Source of the DNA: Collinsella aerofaciens
GTDB lineage: Bacteria > Actinomycetota > Coriobacteriia > Coriobacteriales > Coriobacteriaceae
Reading direction: 5' to 3'
DNA: 64,000 nt
Assembly (NCBI RefSeq): GCF_015548375.1
Contig: NZ_JADMWW010000002.1
Coordinates: 1-64,000 of the forward strand
Part shown: piece by piece, positions 41,241 to 55,807 of the stretch
How the letters are laid out: each line of letters begins with the position of its first letter
How positions within the stretch are numbered: the first letter of the stretch is position 1
Program-made: the position numbers and the translations under genes
The notes under the pieces: generated by a model
What the model saw: only the letters and a program-made list of their open reading frames with translations
What the model was told of the DNA's origin: nothing
Databases searched by the model: none

Positions 41241-42563
41241 TTACGGCTCCAAAAGCCCTGTCATAAAGATGGGTAGATACAGCACGTCACCATCGCGGTG
41301 AAGATTACATTCCGCAAGTACCAGGGCGCGATCGATTCCGTAGCCCTTCGTTGCCAGTGCGTTATCGAGCGCCGCGTGGGACTTAAAGCTCTTGCCCGAT
41401 TTGACCTCGATAGCAAGCACTTCCCCATCGAGCGTCTCCTCAACAAAATCGAGCTCGCCGACCTTTTTAGACGTAAAGTAGCGCAATCTGAATCCGTGGG
41501 CCTTGAGCTCTTGCGCGACAAAGCCCTCGAATGCCGCCCCCATATTCATGCCAAAGGGGCCTTCTGCCTCTCCATCAAAAACTCCTTGGGCAACCTTCTT
41601 GGAATATGAGGACATGAGCATTCCGGTGTCCAAGTAAAACAGCTTAAACAGATTTCGCTGCTCCCCCATTAAAAGAGGCGCTACCGGAGCTGTCACGTTA
41701 TACACGGGAAGCGCAACACCCGCCTCCGAAAGCCAAAGAAAATGGTCTGTCACCTGCGAAAAACGCTTAACACCGCTAATCGACGACAGCTTGAATCGCT
41801 TGTTTTTTGAACCGGCCTCGCTGGGAATCAAATCATAGATATCGCGAATAACCAAGCGTAGCTCGGGCGGAGCGTACTTTGCGATGTCATCGCGATACAG
41901 GGCGTGAAGATCGCGGTGGATGTTTCGAACCTCGTCGACGTTGCGCGTCGCCAAGAAGGAATTGACCGCGTCGGGCATGCCTCCCACCACCACATACTGA
42001 TGGAACAGATCGAGCAAGCGGTCATACAGGTAGCCGGGGAGCTCCTCCTCATCCTTTAGACAGCCCCTGAGCATGTCAAACACGCTGGCACCAACGCCAT
42101 TTGCCCAGCAAAACTCTTCAAAGTCGAGCGGGTACATCTGGACCTGCTCGACATACCCCACCGGCAGGGAATCGATGCCCTCGAGCTCAACGCCAAGGAG
42201 CGATCCGGTAAGGATGTATCGAAAGTCGCCGCGCTGGACCAGGTATTTGATAAACGTCACCACGTTGGGGCATCGCTGCACCTCGTCGATAACCACGACG
42301 GTCTTGTTCGCAACCATCGGCTGCGTCGCAGCGATAGACATGCGCATAAGCAGGTCATCCGCACTTTTCGCCGCCAAAAACGAATCACGCACGGACGCGT
42401 CGGCGATAAGGTCGAACGTCACGACATTTTCGAACGATTCGTTTGCAAAGACGTTGACCAGATATGACTTTCCTACCTGTCGGGCGCCCTTGACCAAAAG
42501 AGCCTTGTTAGGCGACGAGGCAAGCCAAGATTCAAACTGTGCTTTCGCTTTTCTCTGCAGCAT
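41241..42563 (-). CDS. AAA ATPase with DUF4143-type PD-(D/E)XK domain, copy 1
   Basis: A 440-residue member of the AAA_14/DUF4143 family. Walker A is KGARQVGKS near residues 27-35, Walker B VVVIDEVQR near 90, and a sensor-type LTGS follows. The C-terminal part contains GELDFV...LAIEVKSGKS, the D...ExK signature of restriction-endonuclease-like folds. The ATG at 42563 has AAGGGA 7 bases upstream; an ATG 11 codons earlier is less likely. The leader has a GTGCT/AGCAC hairpin and a four-unit 33-bp repeat array starting right behind it. The family's role is unsettled. Confidence 0.85.
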   Translation of the reverse strand: MLQRKAKAQFESWLASSPNKALLVKGARQVGKSYLVNVFANESFENVVTFDLIADASVRDSFLAAKSADDLLMRMSIAATQPMVANKTVVVIDEVQRCPNVVTFIKYLVQRGDFRYILTGSLLGVELEGIDSLPVGYVEQVQMYPLDFEEFCWANGVGASVFDMLRGCLKDEEELPGYLYDRLLDLFHQYVVVGGMPDAVNSFLATRNVDEVRNIHRDLHALYRDDIAKYAPPELRLVIRDIYDLIPSEAGSKNKRFKLSSISGVKRFSQVTDHFLWLSEAGVALPVYNVTAPVAPLLMGEQRNLFKLFYLDTGMLMSSYSKKVAQGVFDGEAEGPFGMNMGAAFEGFVAQELKAHGFRLRYFTSKKVGELDFVEETLDGEVLAIEVKSGKSFKSHAALDNALATKGYGIDRALVLAECNLHRDGDVLYLPIFMTGLLEP

Positions 42564-42596
42564 AAGTGCATCCCTTATTACGTGCTGTTTTAGCAC

Positions 42597-42728
42597 TAGG
42601 ATACACTTTTCCGCGGTTGTTAGGTGCTCATTTCGACACTTTTTCGAAGTTCTAAAGTGTGCATTACGACACTTTTCCGTACTTTTACACGGGATATTTC
42701 GACACTTCTTCGAATTTAAGCCTAACAG
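42597..42728 (-). repeat. Tandem array, 33-bp period, upstream of ATPase copy 1
   Basis: Units start at 42597 (degenerate), 42630, 42663 and 42696, exactly 33 bp apart. Core ATTWCGACACTTNTYCG; the first unit keeps only ACACTTTT. It lies 33 bp behind the ATPase start and overlaps where its promoter must be. An IR with 15-bp arms (GAAATCAAGCGCCGC, 42737-42784) follows. Confidence 0.85.
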
Positions 42729-43465: not shown

Positions 43466-43886
43466 ATTAATCGAGCGCTCTATCGACAAAGATGCATCTA
43501 CCATAACGGCATGGGGCGTGCTCGCCTTGTACCGACCCCAACCAATCCCGTCGGCGCGACTGCAGTCTCAAACAACCACCGGCACCATCCATCCGCACAC
43601 GAGAGGCGATGGGCACAGGCGAACCCCTCAACCTCGCTATTCGTAAACTTCATCAGTGTTTCCACATCCCCATCAAAAGAATCCGAAAGACATCCCCCGC
43701 TAAGAAAACGCTTCTGAACATCTCGCTTTGCAGGCAAAGCCGCACCGGAGTGATGCAGAGGCCTGCGCAGGGTTTCACGGGTCCCCTTGACGCTGCCTAG
43801 CGGAAGTGCCACCCGGCATCCCTTCCATAACGCACGGGTAAACAAAGGGAAATAGCGCCACCCACCGCGCAAGGAAGGACGCCACC

Positions 43887-44870
43887 ATGGATCTCACGAA
43901 AACGGCTAGAGAAATTACCCGCCTCATGCTCCCCTACCTGACCACGCAGCAGAACCGCCAGCTCAAAAAGGTTTTATCGCACTGCCTTTTCGATGAAAAC
44001 CAGTTAGCTGAGAACAGCGGCGACAGTGACAACAAATCATTCCTCGATCTTTTTCTGTCCGCGAAACGCCTCGAAGGTTGCTCGGATAGGACTGTCGCCT
44101 ACTACGAAGCAACCATTAATAAACTGCTTGAATCGTTCGACACGCCAGCCTGCGACCTGGGAACCGAAGAGATTAGGTCCTATCTTTCCGACTATCAGCA
44201 AAAAGCCGGCGTCAGTCGCGTCACCGTCGACAATGTCCGAAGAATCATCTCAAGCTTCTACTCATGGCTCGAAGATGAAGACCATATCATCAAGAGTCCG
44301 GTTAGACGCATTAAAAGGGTCAAGGCCCCACAACCCATTAAGGAAACGTATAGCGATGAAGTCGTTGAGATTCTTTGTGATAACTGCGGGTCGCCCCGAA
44401 ACCTTGCCCTGATCGACCTGTTGCGCTCCACGGGCATGCGTGTGGGCGAACTTGTCTCGTTGGACAGGAGCTCTGTCGACACCATCAATCGTGAGTGCAT
44501 CGTACACGGCAAGGGAAATAAGGACCGCATCGTCTATTTTGACGCAAAGACTAAAGTCCATATCGAGAATTACCTGTCAACCCGAATGGACAGCTCGGAA
44601 GCACTCTTCGTGTCGAGCAAGGCGCCACACGAGAGGCTACAAATTGGCGGCGTCGAGGCGCTGCTTAGAAAACTGGGGCGCGAGCTTGATTTAGGAAGGG
44701 TCCACCCTCATAAGTTCAGAAGAACGCTTGCCACAAAGGCAATCGACAAAGGAATGCCCATCGAACAAGTCCAGGTGCTCCTTGGCCATAAAAAAATAGA
44801 CACCACATTAAGGTACGCAATGGTCGACCAGCGCAATGTCAAAGCATCCCACCGCAGGTACCTAACTTAA
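43887..44870 (+). CDS. Tyrosine recombinase, probable hsdS cassette invertase
   Basis: A 327-residue Xer-like recombinase. The SAM-like N-terminal domain covers about 50-145 (DRTVAYYEATINKLL). Catalytic residues are visible: Arg in STGMRVGELVSLD, Lys in GKGNKDRIVYF, HPHKFRRT (His-x2-Arg), LGHKK and Tyr in TTLRYAMVD. GGAAGGA precedes the ATG. Its last codons overlap one of the 17-bp repeats that bound the silent HsdS cassette, and the cassette converges on it. This is the arrangement of recombinases that shuffle type I specificity genes, so that role is likely. Confidence 0.88.
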   Translation: MDLTKTAREITRLMLPYLTTQQNRQLKKVLSHCLFDENQLAENSGDSDNKSFLDLFLSAKRLEGCSDRTVAYYEATINKLLESFDTPACDLGTEEIRSYLSDYQQKAGVSRVTVDNVRRIISSFYSWLEDEDHIIKSPVRRIKRVKAPQPIKETYSDEVVEILCDNCGSPRNLALIDLLRSTGMRVGELVSLDRSSVDTINRECIVHGKGNKDRIVYFDAKTKVHIENYLSTRMDSSEALFVSSKAPHERLQIGGVEALLRKLGRELDLGRVHPHKFRRTLATKAIDKGMPIEQVQVLLGHKKIDTTLRYAMVDQRNVKASHRRYLT

Positions 44871-44885
44871 ATTTCGATTTGTCGA
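44869..44885 (-). repeat. 17-bp recombination repeat, site R (silent copy)
   Basis: AAATTTCGATTTGTCGA on the plus strand, overlapping the recombinase stop codon. Its inverted partner is at 50095-50111. Confidence 0.8.
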
Positions 44886-45400
44886 CCTGGGCGACGAAGT
44901 CGGCGAACTCCTGTTGGAGCTCGAGCGGAGGAACCGGAACCGGCAGCCTTGCCAGCTGAGTTTTAGGGATGTTGACCATGGATTTTGCCGATCCGTGGGC
45001 CATGCCTTGAATTAAATCGAGGCCACGGTCACTTCTCATGTACGCAAGTAAATACAGCGCGTTGACATCCTTCGGTTTCATACGAAAGACGAGATCGGGA
45101 AACATAAGGCCCCTCACTTCGTTTGGAACATAAACGGTTGTGCCAACTAGCTCAGGCGTATTTTTGCGTGCAAACAAGAGGTCACCCTTTTCGACCTCTT
45201 TTATAGACATGAAGTTGTCTTTAGAAATCACTTTGTTTTCGGAGGCGACAAAAGTACCTGAAGATAGCGCGCTCAGCTTAAGGACCCCAAAACCACCAAC
45301 TCCTCGTGGGCCTTCTCCGCAATTCATACTTTTACCGGTATCAATGGAATCAACGCACTCCGATAGGGGCTTGAAACCCCATTTCTCATCCCCAAACATT

Positions 45401-45417
45401 TCGACAAATTGTGATTT
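45401..45417 (-). repeat. 17-bp recombination repeat, site L (silent copy)
   Basis: TCGACAAATTGTGATTT on the plus strand; the inverted partner is at 49563-49579, with five further bases matching except one. Confidence 0.8.
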
Positions 45418-45480
45418 ACAGACGCAGGATGTCTGAATGGGCGGCGATGCTCAGCTCATTTATCTCGGCAAATATGACGG

Positions 45481-45486
45481 TATAAT
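45481..45486 (+). promoter_or_regulatory. Candidate -10 element of the hsd operon
   Basis: A perfect TATAAT 44 bp before hsdM1; no good -35 box at the right spacing was found. It lies between the silent cassette and the first hsdM gene, inside the segment that would invert. Confidence 0.4.
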
Positions 45487-45529
45487 CACAAGGGCTGTAA
45501 TTTGTATTTTTGAGCTCATAGGTACCTGA

Positions 45530-47029
45530 ATGACTGAAGAACCGATAAGTAAATCCGAGCTGGGAAACCACTTACTCGGAGCCTGCGATATCCTGCGTGG
45601 CCCCATCAACCAGGACGAGTACAAGAGCTACATCACACCGTTGCTCTTCTTCAAGCGCATCTCCGACGTCTACGACGAGGAGACCACCGAAGCTCTAGAG
45701 ATGTCGGACGGAGACGAAGACTACGCCGCCCTGCCCGAAAACCACAGCTTCGCGGTGCCGGACGGCTGCCATTGGCAGGACGTGCGCAACACCGGCGCAA
45801 ACGTCGGCAAGGCAATCGTAGACGCCATGGTAGGAATCGAACGAGCCAACCCCGATACCCTCAGCGGCCTCTTCAGTAGCTTCGACGATGCGAGCTGGAC
45901 AGACAAAGGCAAGCTCTCCGACGAGCGCCTGAAGGACCTCGTCGAGCACTTCTCAGCAAAGAAGTTCGGCAACAGAAACTACAGCGCCGACATGATGGGC
46001 GACGCCTACGAATACCTGATCAAGAAGTTCGCCGACATGCAGAAGAAGAACGCCGGCGAGTTCTACACCCCGCGCGAAATCGTCAAGATGATGGTCTCCC
46101 TGCTTGAGCCGAAACCTGGCGAGACCGTCTATGACCCCGCCTGCGGCACGGGCGGTATGCTCATCGAAGCCGTGCGGCAGATGGACAACTCCAAGCTAGC
46201 TTACGGAAAGCTCTATGGCCAAGAGAAGAACCTCAGCACGTCCGCCATAGCGCGAATGAACCTGTATCTCCACGGCGCGAAGGACTTCCGCATCGCCCAG
46301 GGCGACACCCTGCGCGAGCCCGCCTTCCTTGCCGGGAACACCCTCAGGTCGTTCGACTGCGTCCTCGCCAATCCACCCTTCTCCCTTAAGAACTGGGGAT
46401 CCGCAGAGTTCTCCTCGGACCCATGGGGCCGCAACATCTGGGGTGTCCCCACCGACAAGTCGGCGGACTTCGCATGGGTGCAGCATATGGTCTGCTCCAT
46501 GGACGAGAAGAGCGGTCGCTGCGCCGTAGTGCTGCCCCAGGGCGCACTGTTCCACGGCGGCAAGGAGGGTGCCATCCGCAAGGAGTTGCTCAAGTCAGAC
46601 AAGGTCGAGGCAGTGATCTCGCTCGCGAGCGGCGTCTTCTACAGCACCGGCGTCTCCGCCTGCGTGCTGTTCCTCCGGAATGACAAGCCTCCGGCGCATC
46701 GGGGCCGCGTCTGCATCATCGACGGTACCGAGATCTTCACCGCCCAGCGCGCGCAGAACATGATCACGGAGGAGAACGCTCAGGAGATGCTCTCCCTCTA
46801 TCAATCCTACGAACCCGTCGTAGAGAAGTGCGCCATCGCGACGCTCGATGATATAGAGCGCGAGGGTTACGTGCTCTCGGCGAACAATTACGTCGAAAGA
46901 AGGCGCGAGGAGATCGAGCCGCCGGCGGAAACCAGGAAACGTTTCTACGACCTCCTTCGCCAGACGAGGAAGTCCGAGGAGAAGCTCCTTGAGCTGCTCT
47001 CAAAGGGAGGCTATGTCGATGGAGAGTAG
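45530..47029 (+). CDS. hsdM: Type I restriction-modification DNA methyltransferase HsdM, first copy
   Basis: A 499-residue N6-adenine methyltransferase subunit. The helical HsdM N-terminal domain (PLLFFKRISDVYDEE) is followed by GEFYTPREIVKMM, SAM motif I DPACGTGGM and catalytic motif IV NPPF. It methylates host DNA with HsdS and cooperates with HsdR. The ribosome site is weak. It overlaps by 17 bp a second, clearly homologous but diverged hsdM, which is unusual for a single type I operon. Confidence 0.95.
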   Translation: MTEEPISKSELGNHLLGACDILRGPINQDEYKSYITPLLFFKRISDVYDEETTEALEMSDGDEDYAALPENHSFAVPDGCHWQDVRNTGANVGKAIVDAMVGIERANPDTLSGLFSSFDDASWTDKGKLSDERLKDLVEHFSAKKFGNRNYSADMMGDAYEYLIKKFADMQKKNAGEFYTPREIVKMMVSLLEPKPGETVYDPACGTGGMLIEAVRQMDNSKLAYGKLYGQEKNLSTSAIARMNLYLHGAKDFRIAQGDTLREPAFLAGNTLRSFDCVLANPPFSLKNWGSAEFSSDPWGRNIWGVPTDKSADFAWVQHMVCSMDEKSGRCAVVLPQGALFHGGKEGAIRKELLKSDKVEAVISLASGVFYSTGVSACVLFLRNDKPPAHRGRVCIIDGTEIFTAQRAQNMITEENAQEMLSLYQSYEPVVEKCAIATLDDIEREGYVLSANNYVERRREEIEPPAETRKRFYDLLRQTRKSEEKLLELLSKGGYVDGE

Positions 47030-48509
47030 AATCCCCCAGGAAGAGCTGAACAACCATCTATGGAACGCGGCGGTTCTGCTGCGCACCTACATCGATGCCG
47101 GCTCGTACAAGCAGTACATATTCCCGCTGCTATTCTTCAAGCGCCTCTCAGATGTTTACGACGAGGAGACCGCCGAGGCATTGGAAGCCTCTGACGGAGA
47201 TGCGGAGTTCGCCGCCCTTCCCGAGAATCACAGCTTCGCAATCCCGGACGGCGCCCACTGGTGCGATGTCCGCGAGGCCACGGAAAACATCGGTAAGGCC
47301 ATCGTGGGCGCCTTCCGCGCCATCGAGACGGCCAACGGTTCCAAGCTGCGTGGTATCTTCGGCGACGCCGCCTGGACTAACAAGAAACGACTTCCCGACC
47401 GCCTGCTCAAGGACCTCATCGAGCACTTCAGCGCTATAACGCTCTCCATCGCCAATTGCCCCGAGGACGAGCTCGGCCAGGGCTACGAGTACCTCATCAA
47501 GAAGTTTGCGGACGATTCTGGACACACCGCTCAAGAGTTCTACACCAATCGCACGGTCGTCCACCTAATGACCGAAATCCTCCAGCCCAGGCCCGGCGAG
47601 TCCATCTACGACCCCACCTGCGGCAGCGCCGGCATGCTCATCTCCTCCATTGCCCACCTCAAACAGCACGGAGAGGAATGGCGCAATGTTCACGCCTACG
47701 GACAGGAGATCAACCAGCTATCCTCCGCCATCGGACGCATGAACCTATTCCTGCACGGCGTCGAGGACTTCGAAATCGCAAACGACGACACGCTACGGCA
47801 CCCAGCCTTCCTCGAGGCGGGAAAGCTGCGCACCTTCGATATGGTACTCGCTAACCCTCCCTACTCGATCAAACAATGGGACCGCGAGGCGTTCGCGTCG
47901 GACCCCTACGGCCGCAACTTCCTCGGCACCCCGCCGCAGGGACGAGCAGACTACGCCTTCATACAGCACATCCTCAAGAGTATGGACCCACACACAGGCA
48001 GGTGCTCCATTCTCCTCCCCCATGGCGTACTCTTCCGCAACGAGGAATCGGAGATGCGCGAAAGGCTCGTGAGAAGCGATCTCGTTGAGGCGGTCATCGG
48101 ACTCGGCGCAAACCTCTTCTTCAACTCGCCCATGGAGGCCTGCATCCTCATCTGCCGCAGCGAGAAAGCGCCGAATCGAAGCAAGAAAATACTGTTCGTA
48201 GATGCCTCTGCCGAGGTAACCCGCAAGAACGCGCAAAGCTACCTTGAGCCTCAACACATCAAGAGAATCGTCGATGCCTACCGATCTGACGAGGACATCG
48301 AAGGGTTCTCATCCCACGCATCGTTTAGTGAGCTCGAGGGCAACGCCTTCTCGCTCTCCATCCCTCTGTACGTGAAGCCCTCCAATGATGAAAATGCTGA
48401 CGACAGAAGCATCGAGGAGACGGTAGAAAGCTGGAGAGCCGCCTCCACAGAGGCCGCGTCCCTGCTCGATATTATTGCTGCGAAATTGCATGAAAACGAT
48501 GGTGAGTAA
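47013..48509 (+). CDS. hsdM: Type I restriction-modification DNA methyltransferase HsdM, second copy
   Basis: A 498-residue HsdM, similar to the first copy over the whole length (shared PLLFFKR-SDVYDEE and ALPENHSFA blocks) but well diverged. It has AQEFYTNRTVVHLM, motif I DPTCGSAGM and motif IV NPPY, so both copies look catalytic. AAAGGGAGG lies 3 bases before the ATG at 47013, inside the end of the first hsdM. The motif IV difference (NPPF against NPPY) also sets them apart. The half hsdS starts 2 bp after its stop. Confidence 0.94.
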   Translation: MSMESRIPQEELNNHLWNAAVLLRTYIDAGSYKQYIFPLLFFKRLSDVYDEETAEALEASDGDAEFAALPENHSFAIPDGAHWCDVREATENIGKAIVGAFRAIETANGSKLRGIFGDAAWTNKKRLPDRLLKDLIEHFSAITLSIANCPEDELGQGYEYLIKKFADDSGHTAQEFYTNRTVVHLMTEILQPRPGESIYDPTCGSAGMLISSIAHLKQHGEEWRNVHAYGQEINQLSSAIGRMNLFLHGVEDFEIANDDTLRHPAFLEAGKLRTFDMVLANPPYSIKQWDREAFASDPYGRNFLGTPPQGRADYAFIQHILKSMDPHTGRCSILLPHGVLFRNEESEMRERLVRSDLVEAVIGLGANLFFNSPMEACILICRSEKAPNRSKKILFVDASAEVTRKNAQSYLEPQHIKRIVDAYRSDEDIEGFSSHASFSELEGNAFSLSIPLYVKPSNDENADDRSIEETVESWRAASTEAASLLDIIAAKLHENDGE

Positions 48510-48510
48510 C

Positions 48511-49050
48511 ATGACCCACGTTTGCCTGGGCGATGTGGCCCGCGAAATCAAACAGAAGGTCCCTGTAGACCAAGAACTGCCGACGGTCGGCCTTGAGCAT
48601 CTGGACCCCGGCGAAGTCGAACTCGCCCATTGGGACGAAGGTGTCGAGACCACCTTCACTAAGGCTTTCTCAAAGGGGCAGGTGCTGTTCGGGCGTCGCA
48701 GGGCCTACCTGCGCAAAGCGGCCGTCGCCCCATTCGACGGAATCTGCTCTGGAGACATCACCGTCATCGCCCCCAAGGACAACCTCTCTCCGAGGCTGCT
48801 CCCGTTCATCATCCAGAACGACGCCCTATTCGAGCACGCCGTCACCAATTCGGCAGGCTCCCTCTCGCCAAGAGTCAAGTGGCAGAGCCTTTCGCAATTT
48901 GAATTCGAGCTTCCCAGCATCGCTAAGCAAGAAGATCTTGCCGACATACTCTGGACCGCACAAGAAACGAGGTCTCACTACAGGCAGCTGCTTACAGCCT
49001 GCGATGACGTCGTCAAATCACAATTTAGCGGCCGGAGGTGCGCAGCGTGA
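48511..49050 (+). CDS. hsdS: Half-size HsdS, single target-recognition domain
   Basis: A 179-residue protein equal to one half of a type I specificity subunit: one TRD (GLEHLDPGEVELAHW, FGRRRAYLRKAAVAPFDGI, SAGSLSPRVKW) and one helical spacer ending LLTACDDVVKSQF. It stops five codons past the AAATCACAATTT site. It resembles the N-terminal half of the next gene. Either it works as a half subunit that dimerises or pairs with the full HsdS, or it is a truncated product of cassette exchange. The ATG at 48511 directly follows hsdM2; one at 48499 is also possible. Confidence 0.85.
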   Translation: MTHVCLGDVAREIKQKVPVDQELPTVGLEHLDPGEVELAHWDEGVETTFTKAFSKGQVLFGRRRAYLRKAAVAPFDGICSGDITVIAPKDNLSPRLLPFIIQNDALFEHAVTNSAGSLSPRVKWQSLSQFEFELPSIAKQEDLADILWTAQETRSHYRQLLTACDDVVKSQFSGRRCAA

Positions 49051-50192
49051 CAAGGTATAGGTTCGACCAAATAGCAGAGAACAGCACCGCGAAGAAGAAA
49101 CCCGAGGACAGCGACCGCGAGCGATATGTCGGCCTCGAGCACCTAGACCCCGGCACGCTCGAAGTGACCCGCTGGGGTGCCGAGGTGACGCCGAAGGGCG
49201 ACAAGCTCCTCATGGAGAGGGGCGACGTGTTGTTCGGTCGTCGCAGGGCCTACCAGAAGAAGGTCGGCATCGCCCCGTTCGACGGCATCTTCTCGGCGCA
49301 TGGCATGGTGCTGCGCCCGAGAACCGACGTTGTCGATCCGGACTTCTTCCCGTTCTTCATTAGCTCGGACGTGTTTCTCGATGAGGCCATCCGCGTCTCC
49401 GTGGGCTCGCTCTCGCCGACGGCGAACTGGAAGGACCTCAGGGTCCTGGAGTTCAGCCTGCCGACGTTGGATAAGCAACGCGAGCTTGCCGGCATCCTCT
49501 CTGAGGCCGAGCAGCTCAAGGGGTGTTACCGCGGCTTGCTTGCCACCTGCGACGACATCGTCAAATCACAATTTGTCGAGATGTTCGATAAGCCTGGCAT
49601 TCCGATAAAACATCTTGAAGACATAGCTGATATTCAGGGCGGGATTACAAAGAACAAAAAACGAGAAGCCATGAAGTTGCAGCTTCCATACCTTCGTGTC
49701 GCCAATATTCTCCCCAATGAACTTGACCTAACGGAAGTGAAGACCATTGGACTGACGGAACAGGAGTATGAAGCTGTTAGGCTAATATCCGGCGACTTGT
49801 TAATTGTTGAGGGTAATGGCAGCGATACACAAATAGGAAGATCGGCAATTTGGAATGGTCAAATTGATCCTTGCGTCCATCAGAATCACCTAATCCGAGT
49901 TCGCCTAAGAGACGAGGCCCTCCCGCTTTATGTTCAAACTTTCTTGTCGTCCTCCGAAGGAAGGAGACAAATCATGGCTAAAGCGGTCAATACCTCAGGT
50001 TTACACACCTTAAGTACCAGGAAAATTCGATCAATTGAGATTCCTGTGCCTCCGTTTTCCCTCCAGAGAGAATTCGCTGACTTCGCCACTTCGATCGACA
50101 AATCGAAATTTGCCGTACAAAAGGCCCTCGATGAGCTAAACGCCACGACGAAGAAAATCTTGAACCAGGAGTTAGGGCTCGGAAATGTTTAA
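49047..50192 (+). CDS. hsdS: Type I restriction specificity subunit HsdS
   Basis: A 381-residue HsdS with two TRDs. TRD1 covers about 1-160 and is related to the preceding half HsdS. The central spacer ends GLLATCDDIVKSQF; TRD2 covers about 185-335, and the distal spacer has REFADFATSIDKSKF and a terminal helix. The start is GTG at 49047, overlapping the previous stop, with GGAGG 8 bases upstream. TRD2 lies between two 17-bp repeats shared in inverted form with the silent cassette at 44869-45417, so the second half of the recognition site is probably exchangeable. Confidence 0.94.
   Translation: MTRYRFDQIAENSTAKKKPEDSDRERYVGLEHLDPGTLEVTRWGAEVTPKGDKLLMERGDVLFGRRRAYQKKVGIAPFDGIFSAHGMVLRPRTDVVDPDFFPFFISSDVFLDEAIRVSVGSLSPTANWKDLRVLEFSLPTLDKQRELAGILSEAEQLKGCYRGLLATCDDIVKSQFVEMFDKPGIPIKHLEDIADIQGGITKNKKREAMKLQLPYLRVANILPNELDLTEVKTIGLTEQEYEAVRLISGDLLIVEGNGSDTQIGRSAIWNGQIDPCVHQNHLIRVRLRDEALPLYVQTFLSSSEGRRQIMAKAVNTSGLHTLSTRKIRSIEIPVPPFSLQREFADFATSIDKSKFAVQKALDELNATTKKILNQELGLGNV
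49563..49579 (+). repeat. 17-bp recombination repeat, site L (expressed copy)
   Basis: AAATCACAATTTGTCGA within the central conserved region of hsdS. The half hsdS has a shorter copy of the site (GTCAAATCACAATTT, 49012-49026). Confidence 0.8.
50095..50111 (+). repeat. 17-bp recombination repeat, site R (expressed copy)
   Basis: TCGACAAATCGAAATTT encoding the DKSKF part of the distal HsdS spacer. Its inverted partner is at 44869-44885. Confidence 0.8.
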
Positions 50193-53097
50193 CGAGGACA
50201 ACACCATCGAGCAAATGAGCGTCGAGGCGCTTGCCAGCCTTGGCTGGAGATACGTGGCTGCCGAAGACCTCCCGCGCCGCCATGCCGACGTCATGGTCGA
50301 GCCCATGGTCAAGGACGCCCTCATCAGGCTTAACCCGGAGATTGCAGAAGACCCCGATCGCGCCGACGAGATCATCTACCGACTCAGGGCCCTCATTCAG
50401 TCCACAAGTCCGCAGAACCTGGTCTCCACCAACGAGCGGTTCAAAAAGCTCGTCATCGAGGAGAACTCATTCCCCTACGGCAAAGACGGCCGCATGGTCC
50501 CCATCCGCTTCTTTGGCACGGCGGCGGACGGCGATCTTGACAAAAACGAGTACATCGTCACCAACCAGTGGGTCTACCCCCAGGAACAGGGCGGCAAGCG
50601 CCTCGACCTCGTCCTTCTTGTCAATGGATTTCCGCTCGTCATCGGCGAGCTCAAGACGCCGGTGCGCGATTCGATAACCTGGCTCGACGGCGCTGGCGAC
50701 ATCGCTAAATATGAGAAGAGCATCCCGCAGATGTTCGTCTGTAGCGCCATCAACTTCGCCAGCGAAGGAAAATGCTATCGCTACGGGTCGGTGAACATGC
50801 CTCCCGAGATGTGGGGACCCTGGCATGAGGGCGACAAGAAGAGCGAGGGCACACTTGCCGACGTCAAGAGAAGCATGGCATCCATGCTCACCCCCTCGAA
50901 CGTCATGGACATCTTCCAGTTCTTCACGCTCTTCGCCACCGACAAGAAGCATCGACGCATCAAGCTGATCTGTCGCTACCAACAGTTCGAGGGCGCGAAC
51001 CTCATCGTGGACCGCGTCCGCGCAGGATACCCGAAGTGTGGCCTCATTTGGCATTTCCAGGGCTCAGGAAAGTCACTGCTCATGGTATTCGCCGCCCAGA
51101 AGCTGCGCATGGTCCCCGAACTCAAGAACCCGACCGTCGTCATCGTGGATGACCGAATCGACCTCGAGACCCAGATCACAGGGACCTTCAACGCATCCGA
51201 TATCCCCAACCTCGCAAGCGCCGGCAGCAAGGAGGAGCTTGAGTCCTTCTTCAAGCAGGACATGAGAAAGGTCCTCATCACCACCATCTTCAAATTCGGC
51301 GAGGTTGCGGGGACGCTCAACGAGCGCGAGAACATCATCCTCATGGTCGACGAGGCGCACCGCACCCAAGAGGGCGACCTCGGCGAGAAGATGCGACTCG
51401 CCTTGCCAAACGCCTTCTTCTTCGGCTTGACCGGCACGCCCATCAACCGAACCGACAAGAACACGTTCCACACCTTCGGTGCCAAAGAGGACAAGTCCGG
51501 CTACATGAGCCGCTATTCCTTCGCCGACTCCATCCGCGACCACGCCACATTGCCGCTCCATTTTGAAACCGTTCCCGTCGAGCTCCACGTCAACCAAGAG
51601 GTCGTGAACGCCGCCTTTGACGAAATGACCCGAGACCTCAGCAAAGAGGACAAGGCGGAACTCACCAGGCGCGTCAAGATCGAAGCCGTCATGAAGGCCC
51701 CCGACCGCATTCACAAGGTGTGTGAACACATTGCCAAACACTTCAAATCGAAGGTTGAGCCCGACGGCTTCAAGGCGCAGGTAGTCTGCTACGACCGAGA
51801 GTGCTGCCTGCTGTATAAGGAGGAGCTCGACAAGCTCTTGGGCGCTGATGCAGTCACCATCGTCATGGACACGAACAACGACAAGGAGGACCGGTACAAG
51901 GCATATCGTCGCGATCGCGATGCCGAAGAAAAGCTCCTTGACCGTTTCCGCGACCCGGACGATCCACTCAAGATTCTCATCGTCACTGCAAAGCTGCTCA
52001 CGGGGTTCGATGCGCCCATCCTGCAAGCTCAGTACCTTGACAAGCCCTTGCGCGACCACACGCTGTTGCAGGCAATCTGTCGAACCAACCGCGTCTACAA
52101 CGACAAGAAGACATTCGGTCTCATTGTCGACTATATCGGCCTCTTCGACAACGTCGCCAAGTCTCTGCACTTCGACGAGGCCGAGGTGCAGAAGGTTATA
52201 ACCAACATCGACGAGGTAAAGGCCGAGCTACCCGGGCTTATGCATTGCTGTCTTGAGTACTTCTCAACGGTCAGAGACCGCCGCAGCGCGGATTGGGAGT
52301 CCCTTCTCGAAGCTCAACAATGCCTGCCAACGACAAAGGTGAAAGACCAGTTTGGGGCCGACTTCTCGGTCTTGAACAGAGCGTGGGAAGCCCTTTCGCC
52401 CGACGCATGTCTCAATCCCTACAAGCCCGATTTCATCTGGCTCTCGCAGGTCTACGATTCCGTGAGACCGGTAGACAATCGCGGGAAGCTCATCTGGGCA
52501 GCGCTCGGGCCCAAGACAATCGAGCTCGTGCACGAGAACATCACCGTCGAGAGAGTCCGAGACGATGACGACATCCTTGAGCTCGACGAGGACATGATCG
52601 AGCACTTCATCAACGACAAGAGCAATACCGAGAAGATCACGCGTAAGCTGGAGATAGATCTCGTCGCCCGAATCCGCAGGCACGATAAGAATGGCAAGTT
52701 CCAGAAGCTCGGCGAGCGCCTGGAGGACCTGAGGGAACGTCACGAGCAAGGTCTCATCAACAGCGTCGAGTTCCTCAAGATGCTCATCGACCTCGCCAAA
52801 GAAGCACGAGCCGCCGAAAAGGAAGTCGTGCCCGAGGAAGAGGAGGACAAGGGAAAGGCTGCTCTCACTGAGCTCTTTAACGGCATCAAGAACGGCGACA
52901 CGCCTATCATCGTCGAGAACATCGTCAATGACATTGACGAGATCGTTAAGATAACTCGCTTCGACGGCTGGCAAGCTACCACGGCTGGCGTGAAAGAGGT
53001 TAAAAAACAGCTCCGTGCCATTCTGTGGATGCGCTATAAGCTCAAAGACCAGGCTCTTTTTGATAAGGCGTATTCGTATATCGAACTCTACTATTAG
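50185..53097 (+). CDS. hsdR: Type I restriction enzyme subunit HsdR
   Basis: A 970-residue restriction and translocation subunit. The N-terminal nuclease domain has LDLVLLVNGFPLVIGELKT (D...ExK). The SF2 motor follows with HFQGSGKS (Walker A), DEAHR, GLTGTP and motif VI in LLQAICRTNRVY. The C-terminal helical domain is acidic and binds the methyltransferase. It overlaps hsdS by 8 bp and closes the five-gene operon. All catalytic motifs are intact. A hairpin at 53119 follows. Confidence 0.95.
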   Translation: MFNEDNTIEQMSVEALASLGWRYVAAEDLPRRHADVMVEPMVKDALIRLNPEIAEDPDRADEIIYRLRALIQSTSPQNLVSTNERFKKLVIEENSFPYGKDGRMVPIRFFGTAADGDLDKNEYIVTNQWVYPQEQGGKRLDLVLLVNGFPLVIGELKTPVRDSITWLDGAGDIAKYEKSIPQMFVCSAINFASEGKCYRYGSVNMPPEMWGPWHEGDKKSEGTLADVKRSMASMLTPSNVMDIFQFFTLFATDKKHRRIKLICRYQQFEGANLIVDRVRAGYPKCGLIWHFQGSGKSLLMVFAAQKLRMVPELKNPTVVIVDDRIDLETQITGTFNASDIPNLASAGSKEELESFFKQDMRKVLITTIFKFGEVAGTLNERENIILMVDEAHRTQEGDLGEKMRLALPNAFFFGLTGTPINRTDKNTFHTFGAKEDKSGYMSRYSFADSIRDHATLPLHFETVPVELHVNQEVVNAAFDEMTRDLSKEDKAELTRRVKIEAVMKAPDRIHKVCEHIAKHFKSKVEPDGFKAQVVCYDRECCLLYKEELDKLLGADAVTIVMDTNNDKEDRYKAYRRDRDAEEKLLDRFRDPDDPLKILIVTAKLLTGFDAPILQAQYLDKPLRDHTLLQAICRTNRVYNDKKTFGLIVDYIGLFDNVAKSLHFDEAEVQKVITNIDEVKAELPGLMHCCLEYFSTVRDRRSADWESLLEAQQCLPTTKVKDQFGADFSVLNRAWEALSPDACLNPYKPDFIWLSQVYDSVRPVDNRGKLIWAALGPKTIELVHENITVERVRDDDDILELDEDMIEHFINDKSNTEKITRKLEIDLVARIRRHDKNGKFQKLGERLEDLRERHEQGLINSVEFLKMLIDLAKEARAAEKEVVPEEEEDKGKAALTELFNGIKNGDTPIIVENIVNDIDEIVKITRFDGWQATTAGVKEVKKQLRAILWMRYKLKDQALFDKAYSYIELYY

Positions 53098-54511: not shown

Positions 54512-55807
54512 CTACGCCCCAAGTGCCGCCATGGGAATCACCGCCACGCCGTCGTCGCGTGTATAGGCAATGCTCCCCTTTCCAACCACGACCGCCAAAA
54601 ACGCCGGCGCGGCATTCTGGGCGGCAGGATTGGAGAGCACTTTCCTCTCCAGCGCCTTGAGATTTCTCGCTCCATCGTCTGCTTTCGCATCACTCAGCTT
54701 GACCTCGATGGCTCCCCAGCGCCCGTCGTGCTCAACGATCAGATCGACCTCAAGGCCCTTCTCATCTCGGAAATAATGGACACTGTTGTCGACACCGCCG
54801 TAGGTGGAAAGGAACACGCGCACGTCGCGCAGGACGAGATTCTCAAAGAGCATCCCCAGCGTTTGCATATCGCCAAGCAGCCGCTCAGGGGTAGCCCCCA
54901 GCAACGCCGCCGCAAGTGACGGGTCACAGAAGTAGCGCTTGGGGCGCACGCGAACGCGGGCCTTCGAGCGCATGGGCGGCTCCCATCCGCACAGGTCCTC
55001 GGTCAGCTTGAGCCTGTTGAAGAGGTCCAAGTACGCAGCGATGGTCCTCTCGTCGGGGCCCGCCTCACCGTACGAGGCGTCCTTTACGAGCGTCTTGTAC
55101 GTGACAGCCTGGCTCTCGTTCATGGCAAGAGCTCGCAAAAGGCCGTGTGCAAGCTCGGGCGACATGCCCTCGTCCAGCACGTTGACGTCGAGCACCGAGT
55201 GCACGTACTGGCTTGCCGTCTCTCGCGCAAGATCTTCCGAAAGCCCAAGATTTGCAGGCCAACCGCCCCTGCAGCACCAGCGGGCGACGTCATCCACCGT
55301 GCTCTCGCGACGCTGAGGGGCAAAATCCTCGCCCTTAAAGAGGCTTGCCAGTGACACGAGCGGCTCGCCGTCGCCCGACTCACACAGGGCCATGGGGCGC
55401 ATTGACAGACGGGCGATCCTACCCGTGCCGGAATGACGAACATGGCTGCGCTCCTCGCTTTTGAGCGCGGTCGAGCCCGTGAGCAAAAGTGTCCCCCGTT
55501 CGTTGCCGCTCGCGTCCACGAAACGCCGGGCGGCATCCCAAACCTCGGGCACCTCCTGCCATTCATCGACCAGGTGTGGCGCATCGCCGATGAGCGCCAG
55601 GCTTGGGTCGACCTCTGCCGCCGCACGCTGCGCAGGCTCATCGAGCCTGGAGACGCTCGCCGAGCGAGAGAGCGCCGTCCAGGTCTTGCCGCACCATTTG
55701 GGGCCGTTGATCTCCACACAGCCAAACGCCCGCATAAGGGTGTCGAGGCGCTCCTCTATGAGCCGGGGCCTATATCCCTTTTGGGTCAATCTCTTTGGTG
55801 CATCCAT
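54512..55807 (-). CDS. AAA ATPase with DUF4143-type PD-(D/E)XK domain, copy 2
   Basis: A 431-residue relative of the ATPase at 41241, clearly diverged. Walker A is INGPKWCGKTW near residues 33-43, Walker B LVDEWQEVPEVW near 79-90, followed by LLLTGSTA. The C-terminal domain has EVDLIVEHDGRWGAIEVKLSD, the D...ExK signature. GAGAGGGACGG precedes the ATG. A six-unit 23-bp array starts 38 bp upstream. It lies downstream of ATPase copy 3 on the same strand. The function is not established for the family. Confidence 0.85.
   Translation of the reverse strand: MDAPKRLTQKGYRPRLIEERLDTLMRAFGCVEINGPKWCGKTWTALSRSASVSRLDEPAQRAAAEVDPSLALIGDAPHLVDEWQEVPEVWDAARRFVDASGNERGTLLLTGSTALKSEERSHVRHSGTGRIARLSMRPMALCESGDGEPLVSLASLFKGEDFAPQRRESTVDDVARWCCRGGWPANLGLSEDLARETASQYVHSVLDVNVLDEGMSPELAHGLLRALAMNESQAVTYKTLVKDASYGEAGPDERTIAAYLDLFNRLKLTEDLCGWEPPMRSKARVRVRPKRYFCDPSLAAALLGATPERLLGDMQTLGMLFENLVLRDVRVFLSTYGGVDNSVHYFRDEKGLEVDLIVEHDGRWGAIEVKLSDAKADDGARNLKALERKVLSNPAAQNAAPAFLAVVVGKGSIAYTRDDGVAVIPMAALGA

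Follow-up and report, generated by a model that had tools for sequence, protein, structure and literature searches.

A probable two-site specificity switch in a dual-hsdM type I restriction-modification locus of Collinsella aerofaciens

The window analysed here, a 64,000-nucleotide stretch of Collinsella aerofaciens DNA, carries a type I restriction-modification locus with hsdM, hsdS and hsdR genes encoding the expected domains. At its left end lies an intact tyrosine recombinase gene (43887-44870, plus strand, 327 aa), which matches Pfam Phage_integrase (1.3e-32) and Phage_int_SAM_4, scores above the cut-off of an NCBIfam XerA-like model and on inspection retains the R, HxxR, H and Y residues. 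It is followed by a silent, promoterless C-terminal TRD cassette on the minus strand (44869-45417) and by a 112-bp intergenic region (45418-45529, plus strand), which is assigned as the promoter region of the hsd operon from its sequence and from comparison with an orthologous locus, L104. The TATAAT at 45481-45486, also conserved in L104, is a putative -10 element; a sigma-70 consensus scan of 45418-45529 found no complete match. The operon itself lies on the plus strand and comprises hsdM1 (45530-47029; Pfam N6_Mtase, 6.7e-94, and HsdM_N), hsdM2 (47016-48509; N6_Mtase, 9e-87; about 48% identical to hsdM1), a half-length hsdS1 with one N-terminal TRD (48511-49050; 179 aa; PADLOC Specificity_I, 8.5e-62), hsdS2 (49047-50192; 381 aa; Pfam Methylase_S in two stretches; Specificity_I, 1.8e-93) and hsdR (50185-53097; Pfam HSDR_N and SWI2_SNF2; NCBIfam TIGR00348 above cut-off). 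hsdS2 starts with a GTG at 49047, overlapping hsdS1. The start of hsdR overlaps the end of hsdS2 by 8 bp, and hsdR therefore probably lacks a promoter of its own.

The original prediction for this DNA held that the silent cassette and the expressed TRD2 (49563-50111, plus strand) are invertible 549-bp units with different cores and shared 17-bp ends. Repeat comparison and Pfam bear this out: both cassettes measure 549 bp, compared ungapped on opposite strands they share 36% identity, and exactly 17 bases are identical, in inverted orientation, at each end. The silent cassette matches Pfam Methylase_S (8.5e-8) and corresponds to an in-frame, stop-free reading frame (44839-45399, minus strand, 186 aa), whose TRD has 53-56% identical counterparts in hsdS genes of other Coriobacteriia. 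On the expressed side, hsdS consists of two genes, and hsdS2 runs from TRD1' through site 1R, the expressed TRD2 and site 2R to a C-terminal tail.

Site 1 denotes the exact inverted pair TCGACAAATTGTGATTT, with copies at 45401-45417 (1L, minus strand) and 49563-49579 (1R, AAATCACAATTTGTCGA, plus strand); site 2 denotes the pair AAATTTCGATTTGTCGA, with copies at 44869-44885 (2L, minus strand) and 50095-50111 (2R, TCGACAAATCGAAATTT, plus strand). These are the sole exact inverted repeats of at least 17 bp between 40,000 and 54,000, and the stop codon of the recombinase gene (44868-44870) overlaps site 2L, as had been noted. Both have the dyad with a variable spacer that is expected of tyrosine recombinase sites. 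Site 1 reads AAAT-CACA-ATTT and falls in mid-hsdS, whereas site 2 reads AAAT-CGAA-ATTT and falls close to the 3' end of hsdS; 1L has the spacer CACA and 2L, read on the minus strand, CGAA. The degenerate pattern AAATCNNAATTTGNCG, with one mismatch allowed, has four matches in the window against 0.09 expected, and CAAATCNNAATTTG is confined in the 2.46-Mb genome to 49562 and 50099, which are sites 1R and 2R. The outer arms of 1L and 2L are degenerate, so that their activity could be reduced. The sites fall on conserved HsdS motifs of the KSQF/KSKF type (VKSQF and DKSKF); given such a shared motif and the codon usage of the operon, two copies would be identical by chance with probabilities of about 0.03 and 0.09, and repeat identity by itself is only mildly to moderately improbable. 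The codons used at the sites are rare for this 60% G+C operon (P about 3e-4 and 9e-4 per copy), and it is these rare codons together with the comparative data, the latter much the stronger, that give the repeats their weight. Equal cassette length was dropped as evidence, the cassettes of L104 being of unequal length (567 and 540 bp) with the reading frame alone kept.

L104 was found through its HsdM1 (92% identical): among the 398 genomes of the class, one besides the window's own has a close counterpart, and it belongs to the same order but to another family. The recombinase, HsdM2 and HsdR proteins of L104 are 85%, 91% and 97% identical to those of the window, and its DNA matches from the recombinase gene through hsdR (window 43866-53096) and nothing beyond. 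The gene order is the same, with an inverted silent cassette between the recombinase gene and hsdM1, and exact inverted pairs occupy the same four places (7372-7392/12054-12074, 21 bp; 7915-7939/11534-11558, 25 bp) and contain the window's 17-mers, all 17 bases of site 2L included. The TRD bodies in both of its cassettes are unrelated to those of the window, and its silent cassette is likewise in frame and free of stops. DNA identity, about 73-100% per 30-bp step outside 2L/2R and upstream of the site-1 copy in hsdS1, sinks to background within the cassettes. Sites, recombinase and layout have thus been conserved while the cassette contents have changed, as expected of an exchange system. The operon is oriented alike, linked to hsdR, in both genomes. 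At an HsdM1 threshold of 1e-100 the operon occurs in one of the 45 genomes of the genus, the window's own; its absence from the 44 others fits acquisition by horizontal transfer and makes same-genus homologues unusable for testing switching. No further members of the locus were found in the family of L104, and the closest annotated plasmid relatives of HsdM1 are only 41-53% identical.

Relatives of the recombinase, mostly 55-61% identical, are spread over many phyla and adjoin hsd genes in most of the fetched loci. In 26 related loci of the KSQF/KSKF type, 5-nt spacers were read by pattern and compared. Site-1 spacers agree within the locus in all 22 pairs, with six variants overall, and site-2 spacers in all 16, neither concordance being reached in any of 20,000 shuffles; the same spacer is never found at site 1 and site 2 of one locus. 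Spacers are therefore identical within loci yet differ between them, and every copy retains the rare codons. Common ancestry of the copies in a locus could contribute to this agreement, but the TRD bodies that lie between the spacer-matched sites differ. Tyrosine recombinases generally require spacer homology for strand exchange, and on the simplest reading the same requirement would apply here, with two spacers holding the cassette in register.

Taken together, these observations are best explained by a recombinase-driven, two-site exchange of TRD2 with the silent cassette, which we hold with high confidence, and the locus is very probably a real and functional specificity switch. The neighbouring tyrosine recombinase would recombine like with like at two short kinds of site, each having an inverted partner that bounds the silent TRD upstream of hsdM1. 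Because the spacers of site 1 and site 2 differ, a cassette would enter only in register and in frame. One crossover would invert the segment that bears the promoter, both hsdM genes and hsdS, over 4.2 kb at site 1 or 5.2 kb at site 2. Another, at the other type of site, would restore orientation with TRD2 exchanged, and the enzyme would then recognise a new bipartite target. Sites of this length have precedent, as PsrA acts on 15-bp repeats (PMC7096588) and TvrR on short core repeats (PMC6265443). That the neighbouring recombinase is the catalyst, that inversion takes place in cells and that hsdR expression is lost in the single-inversion state are steps that we infer.

Recombination in silico is consistent with this model. 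A double crossover yields a 381-aa HsdS2 that carries the silent TRD and the normal C-terminus, with hsdR in place; together with L104 and the spacer concordance, such in-frame products strongly support the predicted exchange of TRD2 by crossover at both ends. The further prediction that one crossover would flip the operon relative to hsdR was also reproduced: crossover at site 1 only or site 2 only inverts the promoter, hsdM1, hsdM2, hsdS1 and hsdS2, leaves hsdR behind and gives a 364-aa HsdS2 ending in DKSKFKLGTCGGML and a stop, with the new TRD2 in the first case and the old one in the second. The recombinase gene and hsdR lie outside both invertible segments.

Such single inversions could themselves be the main product, making the locus an on/off switch that uncouples hsdR from hsdM-hsdS and brings on a phase of methylation alone, carried out with a changed HsdS, instead of a device for TRD exchange. 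Each of them does part the promoter, hsdM1, hsdM2 and hsdS from hsdR and leaves the 364-aa HsdS (ending in KSKFKLGTCGGML and a stop), and the same is expected of L104 from its gene arrangement. However, only exchange calls for two orthogonal sites and for a second TRD in frame, both genomes show the hsdR-linked orientation, and the HsdS of a single inversion lacks the normal C-terminal tail; we therefore judge this account unlikely as the principal one, while noting that it is compatible with two-site exchange. It is clearly less probable still that the silent TRD is the defunct remnant of an earlier hsdS copy whose repeats reflect the protein motif alone, with no present recombination. The repeats do encode conserved HsdS residues, identity of two copies is not very rare on that ground, and neither a swapped nor an inverted state was observed, but the silent cassette is open throughout and recurs in that state in L104 with an unrelated TRD, and the rare codons at all copies, the spacer agreement within loci and the intact recombinase all speak against decay. 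Least probable of all is an exchange independent of the recombinase, in which RecA homologous recombination or gene conversion would act on the repeats, for although longer pneumococcal repeats shuffle without a recombinase (PMC6620402, PMC6265443), 17 bp is short, inversion at the pneumococcal 15-bp repeat requires PsrA (PMC7096588), and a dyad with a variable spacer fits a tyrosine recombinase.

Two-site exchange of C-terminal cassettes may be accompanied by modularity at the N-terminal side. At the hsdS1/hsdS2 junction, hsdS1 terminates (...VKSQF-SGRRCAA, stop) at a partial site-1 copy, AAATCACAATTT followed by AGCGG (49015-49026, plus strand), which the original prediction did not include. 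The copies at 49015 and 49563 form the sole direct-orientation pair among the sites and bracket TRD1'. Joining the 49015 copy to site 1R in silico deletes 548 bp and gives a 377-aa HsdS with TRD1 and TRD2, which is the hsdS organisation of L104, and crossover between site 1L and the 49015 copy fuses the silent TRD to hsdS1 (360 aa). The same succession of a half-hsdS and a full hsdS is found again in the dual-hsdM loci L062, L087 and L053, with a similar tail (RRCA, stop) of the half-hsdS in L062 and L087, and in L076 a module starting MAKYRFDQIAIN, which resembles the start of the full hsdS of L062, sits downstream of the recombinase gene. These arrangements indicate that N-terminal TRDs are also modular in these loci. 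Half-length S subunits are able to act as homodimers (PMC3874165; NgoAV, PMC9577141), and half-HsdS1 may be such a subunit, or it may have arisen incidentally when two N-terminal modules were stacked. We also observed a CAAACCCCGGTTTAGCGGGGAGG-like motif, combining a site with a ribosome-binding site, just past the recombinase stop codon in L106, L109, L113, L132 and others; it precedes a module, resembles AATTTAGCGGCCGGAGGTG at window 49022-49040 and probably serves N-terminal TRD modules as their 5' site.

Among inverting phase-variable type I systems, to which the locus conforms in its silent TRD sharing inverted repeats with the expressed hsdS (also in L104), its locus-encoded tyrosine recombinase and its recombinant hsdS, in frame in silico, a near counterpart is the pneumococcal SpnIII/ivr/cod locus (PsrA or CreX), where a recombinase of the locus, short inverted repeats in hsdS and expressed and silent TRDs bring about specificity change (PMC4948785, PMC7096588). 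The invertible part of SpnIII/ivr, however, includes the recombinase gene, which is set among hsdS genes, while hsdR and hsdM are fixed; in the window the recombinase and hsdR genes lie beyond the invertible segments, and the promoter and both hsdM genes within them. The pneumococcal tvr system (SpnIV; TvrR) also has two repeat types, separating the N- and C-terminal TRDs and at the tail, with a common core (PMC6265443), and the 49015 copy with site 1R makes such a direct pair around TRD1'. All tvr repeats are direct and act by circle excision and reintegration, whereas the C-terminal cassettes of the window, through 1L and 2L, are inverted, and toxin-antitoxin genes like tvrAT are absent between them. 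In Mycoplasma pulmonis, reportedly from the work of Dybvig and of Sitaraman and Dybvig, two hsdS genes flank hsdM and hsdR; text confirming this order was not found in the literature open to reading. Inversion between the hsdS genes of hsd1/hsd2 (HvsR) alters specificity there, but the hsdS genes are complete, the recombinase is encoded elsewhere (PMC2824730) and each locus has one hsdM (PMC9465063), whereas the window has a single-TRD cassette in place of a second complete, opposed hsdS, and its hsdR lies outside the repeats.

The placement of the operon between the cassettes, singled out as unusual in the original prediction, is supported as such by comparison with other loci. Among 95 recombinase loci, some of which end at contig ends so that layouts could be missed, 31 have inverted repeats around the recombinase gene only, 28 direct repeats only and 14 both, and in 20 none were found; in the remaining two, the window and L104, inverted repeats enclose hsdM and leave the recombinase gene outside. 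L111 and L133, considered as further cases of an inverted cassette beside the recombinase stop codon, have the usual order hsdM-hsdS-recombinase-inverted cassette. Three loci of other Actinomycetota (L144, L145 and L146) share the order hsdM1-hsdM2-hsdS-hsdR, with HsdR 50-55% and HsdM2 60-62% identical, and neither a recombinase nor a silent cassette was detected in these operons; they are possibly the static, ancestral form. Dual-hsdM loci elsewhere have direct-repeat cassettes downstream, and the window and L104 thus seem to represent a third version of this operon.

The most interesting aspect of the switch is its predicted restriction-off intermediate, for phase-variable type I systems face the open problem of changing specificity without cutting their own unmethylated genome. 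We raise tentatively, as possible but not probable, that the placement of the operon between the cassettes makes every specificity change pass through a single-inversion state, with the promoter, hsdM1, hsdM2 and hsdS pointing away from hsdR and restriction off, methylation coming first and restriction being regained after the second crossover, as a guard against self-restriction. If true, methylation by the new or altered enzyme would go on in cells whose restriction stayed off until the second site recombined; the order of crossovers and any silence of hsdR between them are directly testable in this system. The two-spacer rule, which extends across many phyla, gives searches for such loci a simple signature in the sequence. 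In one REBASE survey inverted repeats had to be at least 20 bp long (PMC7394358), and the window's 17-bp pairs would escape it.

Several minor observations concern the surroundings of such loci. Exact direct duplications spanning the recombinase gene and its neighbours in L031 (3421/5094), L057 (3564/5838) and L072 (4215/7833), of 1.7, 2.3 and 3.6 kb, suggest that the switching module has been amplified in tandem. Two genomes of the genus have their recombinase gene divided between contigs (L098 11956-12336 with L097 127-720; L099 4775-5479 with L100 9466-9729), as if assemblies break at shuffling loci. In the window, AAA_14-DUF4143 ATPase genes flank the module on both sides (41241-42596 and 54512-55807); they match the PADLOC candidate defence family PDC-S01, and the module may thus belong to a defence island. 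At 42603-42717, immediately upstream of the DUF4143 ATPase gene on the minus strand, there are three to four degenerate tandem repeats of 33 bp (ACACTTTTTCGAAGTT...).
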